A stretch of 64,000 nt of DNA from Anaspis maculata (lineage: Eukaryota > Arthropoda > Insecta > Coleoptera > Scraptiidae): positions 108,546,363 to 108,610,362 of the forward strand of contig OX421961.1 in NCBI GenBank assembly GCA_949128115.1, read 5' to 3'. Shown here one piece after another: positions 7,598-19,039 of this stretch. Position numbers and translations under genes: made by a program. Numbering within the stretch: position 1 is the stretch's first letter; each line of letters opens with the position of its first letter. The notes below the pieces were generated by a model. That model made no database searches, had not been told where the DNA came from, and saw only the letters and a program-made list of their open reading frames with translations.

Positions 7598-8874
7598 TCG
7601 ATGTATCGCGGATTGCATAAAACTCCCAGGGACTTTTATATAATCCGTACTACACTTCTGTAGCGAAAGTTGCCTAAAACATTCGCTACATCAGTGTACT
7701 GCGGAATGTATTTTACTCCCAGGGACTTTTCTCACACGATTCAAGAATAGCAGCCCAGGTTTTGAAATTTTTGTAACGCTGTTCGTTTTGAAGCTATACA
7801 GGGTGACTCATGTATTTCGTAGAATTTTTTGAGAAGCTGTATCTTCAGAGCGGTCAAATGGATTTGATTGAAACTTTGTGGGTCAATTCTTTCGTTGATA
7901 GCTGATAGCTGACACATCGCCCTATCAAACCTTGTATCTGGTTTGGTGGCAAACCAGGCAAACATGGCAAACATTAGGTATCTGTATGCACATTTTTTAA
8001 AAATTCATATTCATATTCAGAAACTTAATGAAACATGATAATAATATCACAAAAAAATTGCTTAGCACCATTGAGATGTCAATAAAATTTTGATAGTCCT
8101 GAATATTCTTGAGGTTAGGATTTTTTTGTAAATCAATAATTCAAAATGTTTGCAAATGATCCATTTATGGCCTTAAATTTCAGCCGTCTCGTCAGAGAAA
8201 TAAGAAAAACACGGTTTCTCAGTAGCAACAAAAAATTTCATCAGAATTAAAAAAAAAACTTTTGTTACGTCTCTCGATTTAACTTTCATCCCACATTGAA
8301 CTGTGATGGACAGGGAGCTGGGCCGCTATTCTTGAATCGTGTGAGAAAAGTCCCTGGGAGTAAAATACGATCGCACGCAAAATAAACGGAGACAGTGTTT
8401 CGCGCGGAGTGTATACCGATTTACTGAATTTTGGCTTGGTGTCACAGTGCGTGCTTTCCACCTAGCCCCAAGTTCGGTACACCTGCCATTTTACGCATGT
8501 GCGGGTTCCAAACGGTGCTTTCCATCTACGTGTTCCTACTCGGTTCTGCGCCGTTCATTGGATTACCTAAAATTTTGTGCCACACCATGGAACATGTGCC
8601 GTCTGGTGGTATTTGTACCGTCTAAGTGGAAAGCACCCAGTGACAAGAAGGCTAGAATCACAGAGTGCTAGAATTCATTAAATCAGTACACTCCGCGCGA
8701 AACACTGTCTCCGTTTATTTTGCGTGCGATCGTACATTCCGCGCGCAGTACACTGATGTAGCGAATGTTGCCTAAAATCGTCGTTTTTAGGCAACTTTCG
8801 CTACAGAAGTGTAGTACGAATTATATAAAACTCCCAGGGACTTTTCTCACACGATTCAAGAATAGCGGCCCTGG
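7598..8874. repeat. Compound inverted-repeat block
   Basis: A 43-bp module (CTATTCTTGAATCGTGTGAG then AAAAGTCCCTGGGAGT) occurs inverted at 7715-7759, direct at 8320-8361 and inverted at 8831-8873. Each neighbouring pair can form a foldback. A second module (GCAACTTTCGCTACAGAAGT) pairs 7650-7680 with 8785-8815. The block contains the hairpin at 8366-8734. A related fragment is near 35635-35690. No intact protein is encoded. Confidence 0.6.
8366..8734. repeat. Hairpin repeat with 70-bp arms
   Basis: The left arm starts TACGATCGCACGCAAAATAA and the right arm ends with its complement; pairing continues through CGGAGACAGTGTTTCGCGCGGAGTG. The loop has a further internal pair (GCTTTCCA...TGGAAAGC). 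It is nested between copies of the module described for the compound block. Confidence 0.7.
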
Positions 8875-9385
8875 TGCCATAGACCGCTGCACCGCTGGTG
8901 CCTCAAAACTCACGTCATAAGGTAGGTACATGATTTTAACCCTGTAGGTCTCTAATGTGCGTTATTGATAAGGTTGTTGAAAATTGATTTGTCTTACTCT
9001 TACATGTTAGACCAGGGGCTTTAGTTCAGGCTGGTATGAGCTTGTCAATTTTCGAAAAAATGGCCAAAAATTTACATCATAAATGTAACTACATGAATGA
9101 AACCAACTGGACTTTGAGTGGGAGTGGGAACATACCCTTAATCAAAAATGTGGTCGCAAGGTCACAAGGTTGAAATTTTCAAAAAAGGACCAAAAATTTT
9201 ATCAGTTTTTTCACAGATTAGGCGTTTTGTTGACTAAACCACTAAGTGTGATATATATTTGTAATCAGGATGAAAGACGGAATCGATTTCCATGTCAAAA
9301 TACAGGGCCGGTGTACGATTTGAGAATTTTTTTTTCGATGTTGCACCCTGTAAGCGATGTATGTACCATCCACGATGTGTACCAT

Positions 9386-9621
9386 TTTTACGTGTTTGTT
9401 TTTGAAAAGCCCTTTTTAAAAAATATTAACTTTATTAACTGTGAAAATAATTTAATTCGTACAAGTTTAGAACGTAATAACGGATCGACAATTTATGCGT
9501 GCGACGTGCACTCGGTCATGATACAAAGAATTGTGATATGCGCTAACTGCATGAAGTCGTATATATAAACAGCAGGTGCTAAGTAAGCAAAACTAATCTT
9601 ATTCATGACGGGGTCGTAACA
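9386..9621 (-). repeat. 3' LTR, 236 bp
   Basis: I compared it base by base with 18082-18317 and found no difference. On the minus strand it starts TGTTACGACCCC directly after the polypurine tract. It contains a TTTATATATA motif that could serve as a TATA box. The apparent 60-residue open frame inside each LTR is incidental. Confidence 0.93.
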
Positions 9622-9633
9622 CCTCCCCCTTTT
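9622..9633 (-). promoter_or_regulatory. Polypurine tract, plus-strand primer
   Basis: Minus-strand AAAAGGGGGAGG immediately upstream of the 3' LTR. This position fixes the LTR start at TGTTAC. Confidence 0.85.
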
Positions 9634-9875
9634 AGATAGAATTTTATAAAATTAACTGAAAATAAAAATAGAGGTAAATTTTTTAAAATTCTAAAAATAT
9701 AAAATTATTGACATAAAAGGTAAGTAAGCTAAAAACTGAAATAACAAAATCGTTAAGTACTAAAGACTTAAAATTAAAAGATTACAAATTAAAAGAAAGT
9801 GTCTTTTAGGGTCACGAGCACTTTTCACTTCGTATAAGCTCTGCTTTTAAACACTTCGCGCACTGCAAAGTTTGT

Positions 9876-10986
9876 TCACAAGGCTTTTCTTTGCTGCCTC
9901 GTATTTCTTGAGACGGCTGCTGCTTCCAGAGGCGTCTCTTCAGTTTGTAGTTCGAGTGTCGGTTGCAACTCGATGTTCCACTGGTGAATAGATGTTCTAC
10001 GGTGTGGTTTTGGATTGATATTGCAAAAGTTATAGATTTTTGCACAGCAACCCCTGTCGTCAGGTCTGGGGTTGTTAGAAGGTGAACTTTTCATGTAGCC
10101 AATGAAGTGGCGGCAACAGCCACATTTATAGCAGATGACTGTTACAATTATTATAACAAAGATGGTCAGGGTCCAGATGGTGGATGCGCTGAGGTACTTT
10201 GTTGCGAAGGGCTCTTGATTTAACGTTTTGAGTTCCTCTTCAAGCTCGCCAAGTTTGTGAGCGGCGACATTTAAGTCGTCCAAGTTGAACTGGTTGATTT
10301 TAAGTGGTTTTAAATGGAACTCTTCTTTTGATGTTTGTTCCTCGCAGCATTCGAATGGAATTTGAGGGATGAAGTTCTCTTCTGTATAGTTGGAAGTTTG
10401 TTCTTCTTTAGCATATAGTTGATAAATGCCAGTATATGCATTACACCGTTTTTGTAACGTGATGAGTTTGTTGCCCTCCAGAAGTTTGGTGGTTGTACCT
10501 TGATTAGGGCAGGTGTAGGTAATTGCCAACTTTGATGGTAGGACTAGTAACCATTGGTTCTTGCCGATGTACTGAATGTTATGGTTGATTACATTCATAA
10601 TTAGTGGCTTGCATTTGTCGGAGTTTTGGAGTGTCGTGATGAGGATGACCTCACATGGTCCTTGGGTCGAGTCAAGAGGAATTAAATCTTGACATATGGC
10701 GGTTCTGTCGTCCATTTCTTGGCAAGTGTCGAGGTCATGGATCTTGATGTAAGTTCTCTTATCTTTTGATAATGCTATCATCTTTGATTCGGGGATGATA
10801 GTATGGAAAAGGTTTGTAGAAGGATCTTTGGTTGGTACAGAGTAGAGATGGTAAAGGTCGAAGGTATCCTGATTTATTAAAGGTATTATTATTACAAATA
10901 TTAACCTGTTTTTTGTCTGAAATGCTTGAAGTTTAAAAAGATTTAATAACTGGGGAAGATTTTCCAAAGTGGGTTTGAATGGTAAG
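9876..10986 (-). pseudogene. env: env, C-terminal fragment with transmembrane anchor
   Basis: C-terminal part of the envelope protein, separated from its N-terminal half by the SINE at 10999-11342. The open frame runs about 363 residues. Several cysteines lie in the ectodomain part (CQEM, CEVI, CKPL, CPNQ, ECCEEQ). One strong transmembrane segment follows (IWTLTIFVIIIVTVICY), then a Cys-rich juxtamembrane stretch and a tail of about 80 residues. This layout suits the fusion-type envelope of insect errantiviruses. The frame is free of other stops, so the break is recent. Confidence 0.85.
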
Positions 10987-10998
10987 TTATTTCGCGTT

Positions 10999-11342
10999 TT
11001 TTTTTCAATTCGTTTATTTAACGTCGGCCTATTTCCGCAACGAGGCCTAACACCGACGCCGGTGAATGCTTTCCTCCACTATACCGGAAATTTTGCCGAA
11101 CCCCTGTGTGTTCCAACACAGGGTAGGGATTTTTAACGACCACCAACATCGCATGGGGTCGGCACCATCGTTCGTATTTTACGTGCTATGCGACACACGG
11201 CGCGTCTTGCATTTAGCAAGCATTCCAACTAAACCAAGAAGCTTGTTTTTCGAGGCCGAAAATCCGTCCCCGGCGGAGATCGAACCCGCGACCTCTGGAG
11301 TGGCAGTCGAACGCGCTAACTAACCACACCACAAGCTCCTCT
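10999..11342 (-). mobile_element. tRNA-derived SINE inserted in env
   Basis: 344-bp insertion flanked by a 12-bp target duplication TTATTTCGCGTT (10987-10998 and 11343-11354). On the minus strand the head is tRNA-like, with box A in GGTGTGGTTAGTTAGCGCG and box B GGTTCGATCTC (complement of 11276-11286), and the tail ends in a run of A. Relatives of the body and tail lie at 29640-29830 and 51770-51915. SINEs move with LINE machinery. It interrupts env at about residue 276. Confidence 0.88.
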
Positions 11343-11354
11343 TTATTTCGCGTT

Positions 11355-12184
11355 AGATGTCTATTGATGTCTATCAATTCGCTGAGTAAATTTCTAGGTT
11401 TAATTATCGATGGGTGGATTACTTTTAATTTCGCAAAGGTTAAACTATTGACTATATCAGTAAGTTCTTCTGAAATTAATGTGAATGATTCTAGAAGTTG
11501 TTCACAATTATTCATCAATTTTAATTGATGCTCAAAATATTTTTGACTCCCAAAAAGGGTTTTAATTTCGTTTTCTATTACTTTCATATCTTCGTTGAAT
11601 GTTTGTTCGTCGATTTGTAATTTTCTAATCGTTTCGTTAAAATTTCGAATGGTACTTGTTGTGACTTTAATTTGGTCTTTAATTAAGTTTTGAATTTCTG
11701 AATCGTCTCTTTCTAATTTGTCTATACATTTGCTAAAATATTCTCCGTCGGAGGCATCTAGATTTCCTGTTATAAATTTCCATACGGTTCCAACACCGTT
11801 TGCAAGTCCTCGTCTTACTCGGATTGTTTCGAATTTAATTTCTGTTAACATATTATCGATTTTATTTGAAATCGCTTTTAGAATATCAAGATGGGGTTTT
11901 ATCGTAAGGGAAAAAGTTCGAAATCTTACATTTTCATCGTGTTCATCTTTCAAAAGTACAGTTGTTAGGGTATTTAAAATTTGCAAATTATGTTCGTACG
12001 TTTCTTGTAAGTGATTAATGTCTTTATACACTACTAGTTTCCAAATATCTGAAGTTATTTTTATTTCTCTCTCTTTTTCGTAAAATAGTCCTATGGTATT
12101 GTTTAGGTCTTTGATTTGGATAGTGGAATAAGAAAAATTAATAAGGAATAGGAGAATAAAGATTTTAGATGGAGTCTTGTCCAT
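11355..12184 (-). pseudogene. env: env, N-terminal fragment with furin site
   Basis: N-terminal half of the envelope protein. A hydrophobic signal peptide covers about residues 1-20 (FILLFLINFSYS). A furin-type site RVRR lies at residues 122-125 and is followed by GLANGVGTVWKFITGNLD, which fits the fusion peptide and the conserved start of insect errantivirus/baculovirus F-like envelopes. A long heptad-rich helical region follows. The natural frame ends at the SINE near 11355; the track continues into SINE sequence to 11213, and those residues are not envelope. With a signal, a cleavage site and an anchor in the other fragment, the gene was complete before the SINE arrived. Confidence 0.88.
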
Positions 12185-12672
12185 GATTGATCTGTAACAA
12201 TTATTTGTTCACAGATGATTAGATAAAACAATAAAGCTCTTAATTATGAAATTAGCTGATACGATAAACCAACCTAGGAATTATCGCTAACACTACTAAA
12301 TTCGTACTATAATTGAATTTTCGGTAAAGCCGAAGGATTTTACAGTCTGAATCCTAAGATGTTATTCAGATGACAGGGACAATTTGGTGACTTCCAAAAT
12401 TGTATATCAGGGCAAATCTGAATTTGACCGCAATAAAAAATTAAAATGTTTAATGTAAGTTTTACAGGGAATAGAATTATGCGTATATAATCATAATTAT
12501 GGGGAAAAAGGTGTTCTTTGAACATAATGGTTGACGTCTGCCAAACGTCGTCAGAGTTTTTCAAAAATTCTTGTATTAAGTCCTATTTAGTCGCCTTTTA
12601 CGACACGCATTTGGATTTACGTCTGCTTTATTCTTAAAGGTCCCAAAACAGCAGGGATTATTTGTTAAATAC
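12185..12672 (-). other. pol-env spacer of the LTR element
   Basis: AT-rich stretch of about 490 bp between the end of the integrase C-terminal fragment and the env start. In errantiviruses env is expressed from a spliced RNA, so a splice acceptor may lie here; I could not choose one. No convincing coding frame. Confidence 0.5.
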
Positions 12673-12981
12673 CTAGTCTGAGGTATTTGGGTCTTGGTCT
12701 TCGTCTAATTCTATATTTGACGGTTTTATCCGGTCAAAGTTGACAGTCATATATTTATTATTGGAAGTTAGTAGCTCTACGCAATTCGGAGGTAAGAGTC
12801 TGGTTATTTTGTAGGGACCAAGATATGTGGGGGACAATTTGGATTGTCTTGATGGTTTTCTTAAAAACACTGATTGACCAAGTTTGTACTGAGGTCTATT
12901 TTCTTTTACATGTTTGTCAAAACGTTCCTTTGATTTTTGTTTGGAACTATTGATATTGGAAATGACTTTTTTTGTTAACAT
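12673..12981 (-). pseudogene. pol: Integrase C-terminal tail, out of frame with pol
   Basis: Open frame continuing the integrase in another frame: a basic stretch, then LGQSVFLRKP, LGPYKITRLL and a C-terminal VNFDRIKPS, the SH3-like chromatin/DNA-binding tail of Ty3/gypsy integrases. The upstream pol frame stops at 12947 after entering a run of seven A (minus strand, 12967-12973). A one-base length change there, or an assembly error, explains the split. Confidence 0.75.
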
Positions 12982-15900
12982 ATTGTGCGTAATTTCTCAT
13001 GAGTCTCTGGTAATCATCTTGAAGTTCTGCTTCATTGGTAAAAATATTATCTCTAGATGGATCAATATGTCCAAAAACAATTTCCTGAGGGGTGAATTTG
13101 GTTGAAGCTGACTTGCTAAGGTTATATGTTTTTATAGCGAAAGGTAGTGCGTCAACTACAGGTTTATGAGGATAATCGATGTGGAAACTTCTAATAGAAT
13201 CCATCAATGTGGCGTGAAAACGTTCCACTTGCCCATTAGATTGGGGATGATCAGTGGGACTGACAGTTAGTCTAATGTCGTACAATTCGATTAGATTTTT
13301 GAACGATTGGTTCATAAATTCGCTTCCGGCATCTACATGAATTCGTTGTGGTACAGGGTAGTGTTGGAAGTACAATAAAAATTTATCAGTAACGCTTCTT
13401 GCTTGTTTGTTAGGAATTGGATAAGCCTGTGCATATTTTGAAAAGTTATCAACAATTGTCAGAAGATGTAACTGGGGATGTACGTCTAGTGTGTCCATGT
13501 TTATGTGTTGAAATGGTCGTTCTGGTGTTTTTGTAATTACGAGGGGAAAATCTGTGTTTTGCCTATTAATCTTCGATTGATTACAAGTCTGACACCGTTT
13601 TACAAATTCTTCTATATCTGTTTTCATATTGGGCCATAAATGTTGTTCACGTATTCTTCGAAATGTTTCATTGATACCTTTATGTAAATTATTCTTTGAG
13701 GAATGCCATTTCGACATTATTTCGTTCTTTTCTTCAGGCGTTAGGTCTTTTTGCAATTTGATTATATCATGGCAAATATGGAATTTGAAAGTATCAGCGT
13801 TGAATAAATGACTCAAAATTATTTTCAATGGTAGGTGATTGACCTTGTTCAAATGATATTCTTTAGGTTCTAAATTTTCTTTGATCTCGTAGAGAAGTCT
13901 GAATAAATCTTTTTGAGAAAGTCTTGATAAATTGTCTACGGGCAATTTGATGAAATAGTATTTTCGATTAGTGACCTTTAAGCTGTTTTTGATAGTCAAT
14001 GTTTCAGTTAGATTCAAATTTCTTTCTGTAGTACATGTATCTGCGACATAGGTTGCAATATGGGGTGTATCCTCATTTTCATTATTGGGAATGAATGCTA
14101 TTATATTTTTGTGGTAAGCAAGTGTCACATAGTCGTTTGTCTCTTTTATTAAATCAAAATTTATTGAAGGTTGTTCGTTAATAAATCTGTCATATTCGAT
14201 TTCGAATTCGTAGTCTGGATTTGCATTGAAATCAATTAAGTCTGGTGTCTCGTTACGATTGATTATTGACTCATCTTCTTCATCTGGAGATGAAGGTGGA
14301 TTTGCTGTGACTGGATTTATTCTGATACGCGAAAGTGCATCAGCATTTTTATTCAATTTCCCAGCTTTGTGAATGATCTCTTTTTCTTCTAAATGAGGAT
14401 GATCGAGCCTTAATTGGTTTAAAATATTTTGTTCTCGATCGATATTATTTGAGTGATTAGTAGTGACGTTGTAGTTATTCACGTTAAAGGTTTCGAAAGG
14501 TTCAAGAATTATTTCAGGAAGTTCAACTTCCTTGGTTTCATTGCTTGAGTTCAACATTGTGGTAATAATTTGGTTATCATTTATCTTTACGATGGAATTA
14601 GGAATCTTTACTCCATTGATCTCTAGTTCAGGACATATAAAGGTTGAATCAGCATTATTGTTTGAGAATGGATTTATTTTTACTGGTAGTTGAACTACCT
14701 CGATCGTTCTAGGCGATATATGAAAAATTTTCTTCAAAGTAGTATTTGGTTCTTCGAACTCATAGATATAAATTTTAATCCGACTATTATTAAAAATTTC
14801 TTTTATCATAGAAAGAACGTGCTTCCAGTTCAAGTTATCAAGACCGCATCCGAGCTTTGGCAGTGCTAATTCAGCGATTTGATTTTCTTCGCATATAACC
14901 CGCAAGTTCATTAATGCTGTGTTGATAGAATTGTACGTGGGCTTATCTTGAAAGCGTTCCTTCGTGATAAGGTGAAAAATTTCTCGCGTTTCATTTACGC
15001 TCGAGAAAAAGGAATAAGCAACTTGTCCTACTATCTTTTGCTGAGCTAGCAGCTCGTCGGTATTGTGTGGATATTTTATTGCAATTTTTCTTGCTAGGCC
15101 TTGGCCCATTTTAAAATCTTGAGACACTGCGTGCCCAATTGGAATGTTATTGGGTGCATCTAAAATGTCACCTCTTATGAATTCGATTGAAAATTGATTA
15201 GAAAATCCATTTATTGGATTATTATTATTAGAGAGACTCACGGCGGAGCTCGAAGAATTCCCGAAGGAAGTATTTAAATGATTCTTATCTGAATCGACCC
15301 TAAGGCTATTATTTGCCTCGGAAATATTTATTCTTTGATTCTCTACTTTGAGAGAAGTATTTTTATTAGAAGATCCATTTATAGGATTATTATTATTAGA
15401 GAGACTCACGGCGGAGCTCGAAGAATTCCCGAAGGAAGTATTTAAATGATTCTTATCTGAATCGACCCTAAGGCTATTATTTGCCTCGGAAATATTTATT
15501 CTTTGATTCTCTACTTTGAGAGAAGTATTTTTATTAGAAGATCCATTTATAGGATTATTATTATTAGAGAGACTCACGGCGGAGCTCGAATGGTTCCCGA
15601 AGGAAGTATTTGATTTTTTAAAGGAATTAGTATCGACTTGGATTGAACACTTTGGTTCTATTGCTTTTTTAGCAATTCTAAGATCCACAGAGGGAGTATG
15701 AAATTGTCGATTTTCTTCGTTGATTATACGCGGTTTATGTACCGGGTTTCTTGTATTATTTTTATTAATGGATTCACAATGATTTAAAGTAGTGAGAGAA
15801 GTATCACCGTTCCTTGCATAGGAAAATAATTGAATTTCAGGATAGTCTTGAATTGAACAAAATAGTTTTCTTTTAGGAAAATCGATAACACAATTGAAAT

Positions 15901-16165
15901 TTAAAATAAAATCCATACCCAAAATTCCGTCGAATAATCCAAAGTCGATAGGTGCAACATGCATTGTGTGCGAATTGAATTTACCGACTTGGTATTCGTA
16001 AACATGGTTGGAAAGTACGGGAATATTTTCAATCCCGGTTATATGAATATCTTTGCTTTGGATTTTACTTTCGGGTGAAATAATATTTGGGTGAATCAAA
16101 CTGATAGAGGCACCACTGTCTAAAAGAAGTTTAAAATTATTTTTTGTGTCTAGAATATAAAACAT
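12947..16165 (-). CDS. pol: pol polyprotein: protease, repeats, macrodomain, integrase; RT missing
   Basis: 1072-codon open frame. Order by approximate residue: aspartic protease, active site LLLDSGAS at 13-20 and partner motif GILGMDF; Asn/Ser-rich 56-residue repeats, 188-319; macrodomain, 322-468; protease-RT linker (SPRTIEVVQLPV to EPFETFNV), to about 560; a joint near 575-612 where the first residues of RT (RLDHPHLEEKEII) run straight into the last residues of RNase H (HKAGKLNKNADALSRI); spacer; integrase, about 795-1072. The integrase has a zinc-binding region with CQTC and a catalytic triad: D in NMDTLDV, D in VDAGSEF and E in GQVERF, the last two separated by 35 residues. No YxDD RT motif is present. 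The C-terminal tail is frameshifted (12673-12981). The first Met shown is arbitrary; the protease is normally made as part of a gag-pol product. Confidence 0.9.
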   Translation of the reverse strand: MFYILDTKNNFKLLLDSGASISLIHPNIISPESKIQSKDIHITGIENIPVLSNHVYEYQVGKFNSHTMHVAPIDFGLFDGILGMDFILNFNCVIDFPKRKLFCSIQDYPEIQLFSYARNGDTSLTTLNHCESINKNNTRNPVHKPRIINEENRQFHTPSVDLRIAKKAIEPKCSIQVDTNSFKKSNTSFGNHSSSAVSLSNNNNPINGSSNKNTSLKVENQRINISEANNSLRVDSDKNHLNTSFGNSSSSAVSLSNNNNPINGSSNKNTSLKVENQRINISEANNSLRVDSDKNHLNTSFGNSSSSAVSLSNNNNPINGFSNQFSIEFIRGDILDAPNNIPIGHAVSQDFKMGQGLARKIAIKYPHNTDELLAQQKIVGQVAYSFFSSVNETREIFHLITKERFQDKPTYNSINTALMNLRVICEENQIAELALPKLGCGLDNLNWKHVLSMIKEIFNNSRIKIYIYEFEEPNTTLKKIFHISPRTIEVVQLPVKINPFSNNNADSTFICPELEINGVKIPNSIVKINDNQIITTMLNSSNETKEVELPEIILEPFETFNVNNYNVTTNHSNNIDREQNILNQLRLDHPHLEEKEIIHKAGKLNKNADALSRIRINPVTANPPSSPDEEDESIINRNETPDLIDFNANPDYEFEIEYDRFINEQPSINFDLIKETNDYVTLAYHKNIIAFIPNNENEDTPHIATYVADTCTTERNLNLTETLTIKNSLKVTNRKYYFIKLPVDNLSRLSQKDLFRLLYEIKENLEPKEYHLNKVNHLPLKIILSHLFNADTFKFHICHDIIKLQKDLTPEEKNEIMSKWHSSKNNLHKGINETFRRIREQHLWPNMKTDIEEFVKRCQTCNQSKINRQNTDFPLVITKTPERPFQHINMDTLDVHPQLHLLTIVDNFSKYAQAYPIPNKQARSVTDKFLLYFQHYPVPQRIHVDAGSEFMNQSFKNLIELYDIRLTVSPTDHPQSNGQVERFHATLMDSIRSFHIDYPHKPVVDALPFAIKTYNLSKSASTKFTPQEIVFGHIDPSRDNIFTNEAELQDDYQRLMRNYAQYVNKKSHFQYQ
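14757..15200 (-). other. OARD1/TARG1-like macrodomain inside pol
   Basis: About 147 residues. Reads FIRGDILD, HAVSQDFKMGQGLARKI, HLITKERFQDKPTY, LALPKLGCGLDNLNW and IYIYEFEEP in the order of human OARD1/TARG1. TARG1 removes ADP-ribose from glutamate and aspartate side chains. Its two catalytic residues, Lys84 (in LITK) and Asp125 (in GCGLD), have counterparts here, so an active hydrolase is predicted. Similarity to the host enzyme suggests capture of a cellular gene or descent through a related virus. I do not know of this domain as a standard part of Ty3/gypsy pol. Confidence 0.88.
15207..15640 (-). repeat. 168-bp tandem repeat in pol
   Basis: Unit of 168 bp (56 codons) with corresponding points at 15207, 15375 and 15543: two near-identical full units plus a partial third. 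The encoded unit is Ser/Asn-rich (SSSSAVSLSNNNNPING and a charged segment). Because 168 is a multiple of three the frame is kept. It links protease and macrodomain and is probably disordered. Confidence 0.88.
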
Positions 16166-16167
16166 TT

Positions 16168-16396
16168 TGTGTTGGCTATCATGGGACTTTGCATTTAAAA
16201 TTACATTTCGGACTCGCTCACGTGCGTCTGGGTTATAGGAGACTGGACGTCCGAGGGATCCAGCTCCGCATCTTCGTTTTTTAGATAATTTACGCGAGGA
16301 GTGGGATTGTTTGAAAAATTATTGTTTGGTCGATTTTGAAAATTACTTTGACCTGAAAAATTTCTATTTTGAGGATTTGCATTATTGTGACTCGAA
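16168..16396 (-). pseudogene. gag: gag C-terminal tail cut off by the MITE
   Basis: Open, Asn/Gln-rich sequence on the pol side of the MITE, with NPQNRNF- and NNNFSNNP-type segments and an acidic end. It reads as the continuation of gag beyond the zinc knuckle. It overlaps or adjoins the start of the pol frame, as usual for gag-pol junctions. Confidence 0.7.
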
Positions 16397-16399
16397 TTA

Positions 16400-17004
16400 C
16401 ACAGGTCAACAAAGTGAAAAAAAAATTTTGTGCTTGGGTTTATTTTATGATTTTATTGAATGTCATGAGTCAAAATAATGAAAAAATACCGACATTCTCA
16501 TTAAAGTTTGCTTTTGTAATATTGGTAGGTACTAATGGAACAGATTTCATATCATGAATAAAAACAGAAAATCAGTTTATAGGGGGACGGAGGGAAATTC
16601 TGACATTCATGTGTCATCTACATTAGAGTGTAGAGTGCTCTGGAGTCGCAAAAACGATAGTCATGTGTTTTATTTGACGTTTGTAGGAAATTAAAAATGC
16701 CGAAAAAAATGAAAAAATGTAAAAGTTCTCATGATCATAATAGGAAGAGTCAAGGACTTTATTTCTGATTTTTTTTTAATTATTTTGTATCAATTATTCG
16801 TTAAAGTTGATAAAAAGAACAAAAAAAATAAATTTTTCAATTTTTTTCAACAAGTGAATTGATCAAAATCGACATTTTCATAAATTTTTAAATATGTCAA
16901 AAGCAAACTTTTTCATGGGATATTATTTTTGTTCAGGTTGATTTGACTCAAGCTACAAAAATTTAGTATACTTATCCCAGGCACAAAATTGGTGTTGACC
17001 TGTG
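16400..17004. mobile_element. 605-bp MITE inserted in gag
   Basis: Perfect 12-bp ends CACAGGTCAACA / TGTTGACCTGTG, continuing as an imperfect inverted repeat (TTTTGTGCTTGGG against TTTTGTGCCTGGG). Flanked by TTA on both sides (16397-16399, 17005-17007), a 3-bp target duplication of the kind seen in PIF/Harbinger-type elements. The interior is AT-rich with a further inverted pair around AAAGTTTGCTTTTG. No transposase. Confidence 0.88.
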
Positions 17005-17774
17005 TTATTTATTCTTCTGAAACAATTTACTATTAAATGACCAGGTTTTTTGCAGTAATTGCAGAATTTCGCGTCTGGTCGTGGATTTGGATTATGAGCA
17101 TAATTGCTCGGTCCTGCTTGAGGTGAAACATGTTGGTTATGGTAATTTTGTCGTGGAAAGCTTTTAAATGTTTTCGTATTGTTTTGACTGCTGCGCGTTG
17201 ATCTTAGGTATGCAATATTTTCTTCCTCAAGTATTAGTTGGGCGGCTTCGCTAATGGATAATGGTTTTTGTGCTCTTATTAATTGACCTAAGGGGTCATT
17301 TAATCCGGCTAATAAAGTTTTCAGTCCGATCTTTTCGTGTGACTCGATTAAGGTGTTTTTATGTAATGGGTTGATTTCGTCGTCGAGTCGAACACTCGAC
17401 CTTAATTTTGTTAATAAATTTTCTATTTTTGTTACGAAGCTTCGCGCTGTTTCAGTCGTTTTTTGGAAAGAATTTGTGAGGTCTCTGACGAGAGCTTCGG
17501 TATCCCTACAATCGCCAAAGTGGCCTATTAAAAGGGGCCTTATTGCTTCCCAGGTTGTTAGATTCCTCGAGGATATGAAAGTTTTAGCTTTTCCAGTTAG
17601 TTTGGATTTAATTAGAAAAACAAGGACATTTTCTTGTCCTTCTTCGATGTTTTCCGTTGCAAAATTACATGCTTCTATAAAATCATTCAGTAAGGCTTGT
17701 TCGCCATCGAATGAGGGAATTAAATCTCTAAGATCTCTCAAAGAGAGTTGAATTTCGTTATTACCTTCAGCCAT
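16953..17774 (-). pseudogene. gag: gag, truncated by a MITE
   Basis: Capsid/nucleocapsid protein of the LTR element. The first 256 or so residues are genuine: a helical capsid-like region (IRPLLIGHFGDCRDTEALVR, FVTKIENLLTKLRS) and one zinc knuckle CNYCKKPGHLIVNC (CX2CX4HX4C). The last 16 or so residues of the open frame come from the MITE, which supplies the stop at 16953. The remaining gag tail lies at 16168-16396. The ATG at 17774 follows the leader and PBS and begins MAEGNNEIQLSL. Structural protein of the retroelement particle, acting in the cytoplasm. Confidence 0.88.
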
Positions 17775-18061
17775 TTCGAATTATTACAGGTAAATAATAT
17801 AATATCAATACACTAAACAAGATAAAAAGGATATAAAATGGAAAGGGGAATACCCCGAAACAAACAATGATGATTATAAAAATAAGTAGACTTACTACTT
17901 GATGGAAATCGTTGCCGTCGGAGAACTTCAGGACAGGTTCCGCTGGAGCTTCCTTGGTTTGATTACAGATGTAGGCTGCTAGGCTGAAGTGCTGGAGCAC
18001 ACCACTTGACACTTTTTTACGTATAAAATTTTCAAAAATTATTTGTGCCAAATGGGCCTAA

Positions 18062-18080
18062 CATCCTACCGACTGCGCCA
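18062..18080 (-). promoter_or_regulatory. tRNA primer-binding site
   Basis: Minus-strand TGGCGCAGTCGGTAGGATG, one base inside the 5' LTR. It begins with TGG, complementary to a tRNA CCA end. The start TGGCGCAGTCG resembles the serine-tRNA-type PBS of 17.6/297-like Drosophila errantiviruses; the exact primer is inferred. Confidence 0.85.
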
Positions 18081-18081
18081 T

Positions 18082-18317
18082 TTTTACGTGTTTGTTTTTG
18101 AAAAGCCCTTTTTAAAAAATATTAACTTTATTAACTGTGAAAATAATTTAATTCGTACAAGTTTAGAACGTAATAACGGATCGACAATTTATGCGTGCGA
18201 CGTGCACTCGGTCATGATACAAAGAATTGTGATATGCGCTAACTGCATGAAGTCGTATATATAAACAGCAGGTGCTAAGTAAGCAAAACTAATCTTATTC
18301 ATGACGGGGTCGTAACA
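18082..18317 (-). repeat. 5' LTR, 236 bp
   Basis: Identical by eye to the 3' LTR at 9386-9621. Followed on the plus strand by the target duplication CCAT. It should carry the element's promoter. Confidence 0.93.
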
Positions 18318-18652
18318 CCATCAAAAATCTTTGTGGACAGATTCGAAACCTAAGTGAAAAATTATGTAAAAACTTGGAGGTGTAAAAATCGTTTTTCATT
18401 CCTAAAACTATGTCAAAGGAGAAGTCACCAGGAGGAGATAAATTTTGGCCCTTTTTGAATATTTCAAACTTGTCTTTATGGACCGAGAGCCCCCAAAAAT
18501 TTTGTCTTATGATCCGATTTTTGATTAGGGGGGATGTTCCCACACAAAAGCCCGTTGATTTCATTCATGTACGTACCTTATGTCCTTATGACGTAAATTT
18601 TGGCCATTTTTCGAAAACTGCCAAGTCTATAGCAGCCTAAAGCCCCCGGTCA

Positions 18653-19039
18653 GGGCTATGCCCTGTCCATGACGCTCTCCTGTACGGGTCCACATTCAGC
18701 AGTCCACGGCGAAATCGAGTGGCGAAATCGGCGATAAATAAAGTCGTGGACTTTTTTTCGGTGGGACGTTTGAGCTGTGGACGTCTATGCTGTGGACTGA
18801 TTTCGCTGGCTGTGGACATGCTGTAGAGTGTAGACCGCTGAGTGGGCTCCCTCGTGAACTACAAGTTGCCTACACCCTTATACTAAACCAAGCCTACACC
18901 CTACACTTGGACGAGTTTCAAATTTAGCGCTTTTATTCAATCAATTAAAGGTACCAACCTAAAAGCTTGAAATCCCTAAAAAAGACCTATGGCTTCTGTC
19001 TTCTGTCATTTCTGTGTCATTTGTCATTGTCATTCCTCA
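18653..19039. other. Gene-less stretch with short GCTGTGGAC repeats
   Basis: Between the foldback and RpL10. From 18755 to 18835 it has several copies of a GCTGTGGAC(GT) word and related TGTGGAC words, possibly a degraded minisatellite. The rest shows no clear feature; the RpL10 promoter must lie near its right end. Confidence 0.5.

Follow-up and report, generated by a model that had tools for sequence, protein, structure and literature searches.

Macrodomains lie within the polyproteins of RNA viruses (alphavirus nsP3, rubella p150 and coronavirus), where they are thought to reverse host ADP-ribosylation, and interest in viral macrodomains stems from what they show of ADP-ribosylation as a defence against viruses. 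The host enzyme TARG1/OARD1 (C6orf130), a free-standing terminal ADP-ribose glycohydrolase, is reported to free proteins of ADP-ribose linked to Glu/Asp, and DNA of ADP-ribose linked to thymidine (PMC8501950, PMC11102865). The macrodomain of the bacterial antitoxin DarG, which is paired with the DarT toxin, is described as taking thymidine-linked ADP-ribose off DNA in the same way; a DarT rescue assay in E. coli exists for both proteins, and the rescue is reported to fail with TARG1 K84A and with DarG K80A (PMC8501950). Telomeric DNA, single-stranded sites included, is described as being modified by PARP1, with TARG1 removing the mark (PMC11102865). Among LTR retroelements, macro-domain ORFs are mentioned for fish epsilon-like endogenous retroviruses (Basta et al. 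2009, as cited in PMC4977317), in which the domain forms an additional ORF of vertebrate retroviruses.

The window (the whole 64,000-nucleotide stretch of DNA analysed here) holds an LTR retroelement with a TARG1-type macrodomain that is one domain of Pol, unlike the free-standing host enzyme. As in the RNA viruses, a macrodomain is part of a viral polyprotein; as in the fish retroviruses an LTR retroelement carries it, but inside a Ty3/gypsy pol and not as an additional ORF. The TARG1-like fold recurs in other classes of invertebrate-associated viruses as well, with Kadipiro virus VP8, thrips negev-/virga-like viruses and a cressdnavirus (names as in BFVD) among its best viral structural matches in BFVD, at 28-35% identity in the first three. 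A Pfam scan of a part of the window frames recognised nothing DarT-like among them. With insect errantivirus-type (gypsy) elements the window copy has in common its LTRs, protease, integrase and a Baculo_F-like, F-type envelope, and it differs from them in the macrodomain in pol and in the loss of reverse transcriptase (RT) and most of RNase H. The element spans 18319-9382 on the minus strand, and its features are as follows.

18078-18319, minus strand: 5' LTR repeat of 242 nt, 100% identical to the 3' LTR (repeat search)
16953-17774, minus strand: gag-like frame (Retrotrans_gag 19.2 bits, Ty3_capsid 16.1 bits, both under the cut-off)
16204-16452, minus strand: residues resembling a gag tail, in another frame than the gag-like frame (our own reading)
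12950-16165, minus strand: open pol frame of 1072 codons with protease, repeat linker, macrodomain, pre-RT linker, RNase H end and integrase
15806-16165, minus strand: retroviral-type aspartic protease region with the motif DSGAS (gag-asp_proteas, Asp_protease_2 and RVP below the cut-off; motif found by eye)
15194-15697, minus strand: 168-nt coding repeat (56 codons) in three head-to-tail copies between protease and macrodomain (98% and 61% to the reference copy)
14756-15193, minus strand: TARG1/OARD1-type macrodomain (Pfam, phmmer, AlphaFold, Foldseek, VIA-align)
14960-14962, minus strand: Lys codon aligned with TARG1 Lys84 (LITK)
14837-14839, minus strand: Asp codon aligned with TARG1 Asp125 (GCGLD)
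14370-14400, minus strand: deletion junction where RT and most of RNase H are missing in frame (1317 nt in comparison with an RT-holding copy)
13244-13738, minus strand: integrase, H2C2 zinc domain and rve core (Integrase_H2C2 E 6.7e-16, rve E 1.4e-13)
12676-12996, minus strand: weak SH3-like integrase C-terminal stretch in a separate frame (SH3_Tf2-1 E 7e-4, below the cut-off)
9876-12184, minus strand: Baculo_F-type envelope region in two separate frames, 11213-12184 and 9876-10967 (Baculo_F E 2.8e-15 and 9.8e-28)
9382-9623, minus strand: 3' LTR repeat of 242 nt, with a purine tract before it (repeat search)

The identity of the domain is carried by several kinds of comparison, all of which bear out the TARG1-type assignment of the original prediction. 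Within the stretch searched (14720-15202, minus strand) the Pfam Macro match reaches 25.6 bits, phmmer aligns the domain with human OARD1 structures at E 2e-27 to 3e-27, and the domain is complete, with 37-38% identity to human TARG1. The AlphaFold model (pLDDT 89.7) has TARG1 as its best structural match in Foldseek and VIA-align, and in a class check TARG1 is closer to the domain than other macrodomain classes by sequence, Foldseek and VIA-align alike. The phmmer, AlphaFold and Foldseek results rule out chance similarity. The alignments also place counterparts of the catalytic Lys84 and Asp125 where they had been predicted, and the domain may thus be described as a predicted ADP-ribosylhydrolase with a predicted active lysine, on the strength of alignment and model.

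The domain is part of a Ty3/gypsy pol, as had been proposed, and lies inside the open frame in which protease and integrase are recognised. The LTR repeats stand 8,696 nt apart (start to start) with CCAT at the outer end of both, readable as a 4-bp target duplication, and just inward of the 5' repeat stands TGGCGCAGTCGGTAGGAT, which we take to be a tRNA-Ser-like primer site. The LTR pair and the F-type envelope, the latter in the form of the two Baculo_F frames, are thus both present in the window copy, as in a Ty3/gypsy errantivirus-like element. The frames of the gag (16453-16952) and envelope (10968-11212) regions are broken while the LTRs are identical, so these breaks may long have been present in the lineage that was copied and need not be decay after insertion. 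The number of 168-nt in-frame repeats seems to vary among related loci, because the protease starts near 370, 538 or 706 when the macrodomain is at 1501. As to the surroundings of the element, two nested inverted repeats (48 nt at 100% and 49 nt at 94%) lie beside it at 8313-8878 and perhaps belong to a small DNA transposon, matches of other window frames to APEH, to LRRFIP and to a GTPase domain of translation factors point to an animal host, which the F-type envelope makes likely to be an arthropod, and searches found no RNA families in the 64-kb window and no tRNAs within 9000-19000.

The original prediction had described an uninterrupted pol of 1072 codons. The frame is indeed open, but the pol is not complete: the pre-RT linker runs directly into the last residues of RNase H and then into integrase, and RT is absent. 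In RT-holding copies of the same family, hereafter family C, the order is protease, macrodomain, RT, RNase H and integrase (for example L041 with the adjoining L059, pieces read apart), which contains the order protease, RT, RNase H, integrase of an errantivirus-like element. The same deletion junction, with at most one base of difference, is found in 12 of the 30 family C loci read (the window counted), and 36 of the 70 family C macrodomain matches have no RT match among the matches listed, some of them (L053) having a broken RT in its place. The shared junction and the many macrodomain matches without RT suggest that RT-less copies have multiplied, presumably by means of proteins from complete relatives, and the window copy, having no RT, could at most have moved with proteins supplied in this manner. 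Two further loci, L056 and L058, show a second, different loss in the RT region and retain macrodomain and integrase, in a sample picked by macrodomain match.

We then turn to the genome (757.8 Mb searched), where the proposed check for the same domain in other pol frames gave a clear answer. With the window domain as query, the best 150 of 425 candidate places all have E <1e-25 and fall into 70 matches at 88-100% identity (family C) and 80 at 35-42%. With human OARD1 as query, the best 150 of 476 places are all single-exon at E 8e-32 or better, the top matches being 51-53% identical, with one partial match at 55%; a part of these single-exon matches was read, those read are element copies, and an intron-split host OARD1 could rank below the best 150. 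Taken together the domain is found at about 220 places or more, a part of them read (69 copies of family C, two of the 70 matches being one copy, plus the 150 human-OARD1 places and one of family F). These numbers rule out a capture confined to a single copy.

Among the loci read, the macrodomain occurs in seven Ty3/gypsy families: C, to which the window belongs, and at least six others (A, L008 and others; B, L009 and others; D, L060; E, L061; F, L179; G, L178). It occupies three positions in pol. Families A, B and D have the order RT, RNase H, macrodomain, integrase; families C and F have the macrodomain between protease and RT; and in families E and G it stands at the front of pol, ahead of the protease. 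The domains of the seven families are 33-56% identical pairwise and 37-51% identical to human OARD1, and the longest open frames, assigned to families by identity and place, are 1482 (A), 1462 (B), 1653 (C), 1627 (D), 1341 (E), 844 (F) and 1631 (G) codons. A further family, H2, has an RT closer to that of D (52% identity, vs. 46-50% for A, B and C) and, in a 321-nt stretch of a single copy, runs from RNase H into integrase with no macrodomain in between, which indicates that the domain is not needed by every related element. The H2 copies (G000 C1:17676670 and other matches at 51-52%) have unusually long open frames of up to 2526 codons. In L179 of family F a degenerate second half-macrodomain, lacking the catalytic residues, lies upstream of the intact one (minus strand, about 3280-3107); it is 27-31% identical over 62 residues with an hhalign probability of 91% (from a profile that includes F itself), and looks like a doubling of the domain followed by decay of one copy.

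Retention of the domain can be followed by position among the matches listed. All 33 RT matches of family C have a macrodomain match within 4.5 kb, mostly at one fixed spacing, while in families A and B together 94 of 117 RT matches have one nearby and 23 do not. The catalytic residues are kept almost throughout. In the 59 full-length copies of family C (11 partial matches among the 70 were dropped) the Lys is present in 59 and the Asp in 58; both residues are kept in 14/14 loci of family A, in 4/4 each of D and E, and in the single loci of F and G, with AAGSD in place of the GCGLD of TARG1 in F; family B has the Asp in 12/12 loci and the Lys in 11, with one Arg. The outcome that would have spoken against a function, namely a domain found in the window copy alone and under relaxed selection, is therefore not what the 33 RT matches and the near-complete retention of catalytic residues display.

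The strength of selection differs among families. The pooled pairwise dN/dS of the macrodomain is 0.355 in C (59 copies), 0.547 in A (14 loci) and 0.221 in B (11 of 12 loci); a value of 0.22 for C, obtained from the 30 copies nearest the window, was judged to be biased and gave way to the estimate from the 59 full-length copies. Neutral evolution was simulated on the tree of each family (1000 simulations each), using the transition bias seen in the data and with the copies that bear a stop inside the domain removed beforehand (4 of 59 in C and 4 of 14 in A). None of the 1000 simulations is as low as the observed 0.221 in B (11 loci), 29 are as low as 0.398 in A (10 of 14 loci), and 36 are as low as 0.349 in C (55 copies; 5 of 300 in a separate run). 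From these counts, family B shows clear purifying selection on the macrodomain, and families A and C show a modest one. The RT has lower values than the macrodomain in B (0.08-0.09 vs. 0.22) and in A (0.18 vs. 0.55, from 14 loci, four of them with stops). In C the protease, at 0.53 (27 loci), is not below the macrodomain, and the integrase estimate is uninformative (11 loci, dS 0.0016).

What the domain does for the element is best read as erasure of ADP-ribose: predicted from sequence and structural model to be an ADP-ribosylhydrolase, it would serve either counter-defence or the clean-up of cDNA. Reverse transcripts go through a single-stranded DNA stage with free ends, so an eraser borne by Pol would be well placed. 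Being a part of the Pol polyprotein, the macrodomain would be packaged alongside RT and integrase, and its action on the replication complex would be in cis. Its likeliest substrates would be thymidine- or end-linked ADP-ribose on single-stranded cDNA, or else ADP-ribose linked to Glu/Asp of Gag, of integrase or of host proteins close by, a proposal that follows from the two linkages which TARG1 itself reverses. The outcome would be a blunting of ADP-ribosylation-based restriction of reverse transcription or integration. In its specific form, that a TARG1-type ADP-ribosylhydrolase in Ty3/gypsy Pol removes host PARP-type ADP-ribose from element cDNA or proteins, we give this reading an even chance. 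Modest selection in A and C together with weaker constraint than on RT counts against it, as do the AAGSD of family F, the Arg in place of Lys in one of 12 B loci, the 23 RT matches of A and B that have no macrodomain match among those listed, and the relative H2. As for the host side, Drosophila lacking PARP-1 are reported to have 5 of 8 significantly changed mobile elements up and 3 of 8 down, and 9 of 10 further rising elements (which pass no false-discovery limit) belong to the gypsy superfamily; the authors state that the derepression in parp-1 mutants may be indirect (PMC7712786).

Other explanations of the same data have to be weighed against erasure. A domain that merely reads ADP-ribose could guide integration by tethering Pol or the integration complex to DNA ends marked by PARP1 or to ADP-ribosylated chromatin. 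Macrodomains as a class bind ADP-ribose, and in A, B and D its placement after RNase H and ahead of integrase would suit such a role, but the domain stands before RT in C and F and before the protease in E and G, and the catalytic Lys and Asp, kept in nearly all copies read, should be dispensable for reading alone; we regard this reading as unlikely. That the domain is a housekeeping factor without a link to defence, whose target is a protein of the element itself or a host metabolite such as O-acetyl-ADP-ribose, agrees with the other name of OARD1, O-acetyl-ADP-ribose deacetylase (PDB molecule names), and purifying selection alone does not tell the target. The varied positions in pol and the weaker constraint than on RT in A and B point to an accessory rather than a core factor, however, and we hold a housekeeping role to be quite unlikely.

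The domain might also have no function, as a single captured gene fragment copied along with successful elements. This would fit the modest selection signal in A and C, the extra degenerate half domain in F, and the few matches that some families have among those listed (4 for D, 1 for F). It is hard to reconcile with seven families whose domains, only 33-56% alike, retain open frames and catalytic residues, with a dN/dS in B below all 1000 neutral simulations, and with a macrodomain match near every one of the 33 RT matches listed for C, and we consider a functionless passenger very unlikely. A single-copy chimera or assembly artefact is scarcely credible: the window copy, taken alone, is rearranged and RT-less, but 59 full-length matches of its family lie on many contigs, six of them (the window included) 100% identical in the protein domain, and the genomic copies refute this explanation.

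The original prediction also knew of no standard Ty3/gypsy pol with this domain. Among the papers listed by full-text literature searches, judged by title and the start of the abstract and with subscription journals mostly outside, none describes a macrodomain in a Ty3/gypsy pol, and the main text of a 2025 study of insect endogenous retroviruses (PMC12992720) has no word starting with "macro". To that extent this part of the claim stands, with the qualification that a macro domain in retroviral elements has a precedent in the fish retroviruses, as far as these are described in PMC4977317; it is the placement in Ty3/gypsy pol that appears new. That many Ty3/gypsy pol families of a single genome carry TARG1-type domains would extend the conflict over ADP-ribosylation to endogenous retroelements, and would suggest that transposition is held in check by ADP-ribosylation linked to DNA or Pol. 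The idea is directly testable, given a small domain, a catalytic lysine identified by alignment and, as reported in PMC8501950, an existing DarT rescue assay.

The history of the domain was approached through two sets of trees. In the RT tree, built from families of this genome alone, C groups with A and B (86/99), and the groupings that would match position in pol, C with F (p-AU 0.0024) and A with B and D (0.008), are rejected. The best RT tree implies three changes of position, the least possible number being two. From this mismatch the position of the domain does not follow RT descent as read from these sequences, and the domain has been relocated or gained repeatedly. It is possible, though we put it forward tentatively and think it somewhat less than probable, that TARG1-type erasers form a mobile counter-defence module of Ty3/gypsy elements. 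In one animal genome, at least seven families would then have gained it in, or moved it to, three places of Pol, and this would imply a host immunity, yet to be described, that marks retroelement cDNA or proteins with ADP-ribose.

In the macrodomain tree the seven element domains lie on one side of a branch with five OARD1 proteins on the other (97/92), E groups with G (99/97) and A with B (91/91), and the groupings A+B+C (p 0.062), C+F (0.335), A+B+D (0.186) and A+B+C+D+F (0.223) are not rejected. The phylogeny asked for by the original prediction sets the elements apart from these OARD1 proteins, all of them from outside the arthropods, and is compatible with one capture as well as with several. 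Two protein searches, one with the window domain alone (21 candidates) and one with residues 318-485 of the pol frame (169 candidates), returned nothing at E 0.001; both require exact 5-residue words and are thus no evidence of absence elsewhere. A profile search, whose length limit excludes fusions of pol length, gave 1644 matches, and among the best 120 the named ones are nearly all vertebrate OARD1, plus two molluscs. A tree that includes 13 relatives from viral contigs is weak; the branches of the window and of E are long in it, and the elements stand on one side at 79/84. In total, 83 viral-contig stretches encode TARG1-like relatives, of which 80 were kept as loci (L069-L148), and in this weak tree one of them, L070, is separated from the 12 other viral relatives used and falls near family E and the OARD1 of Littorina.
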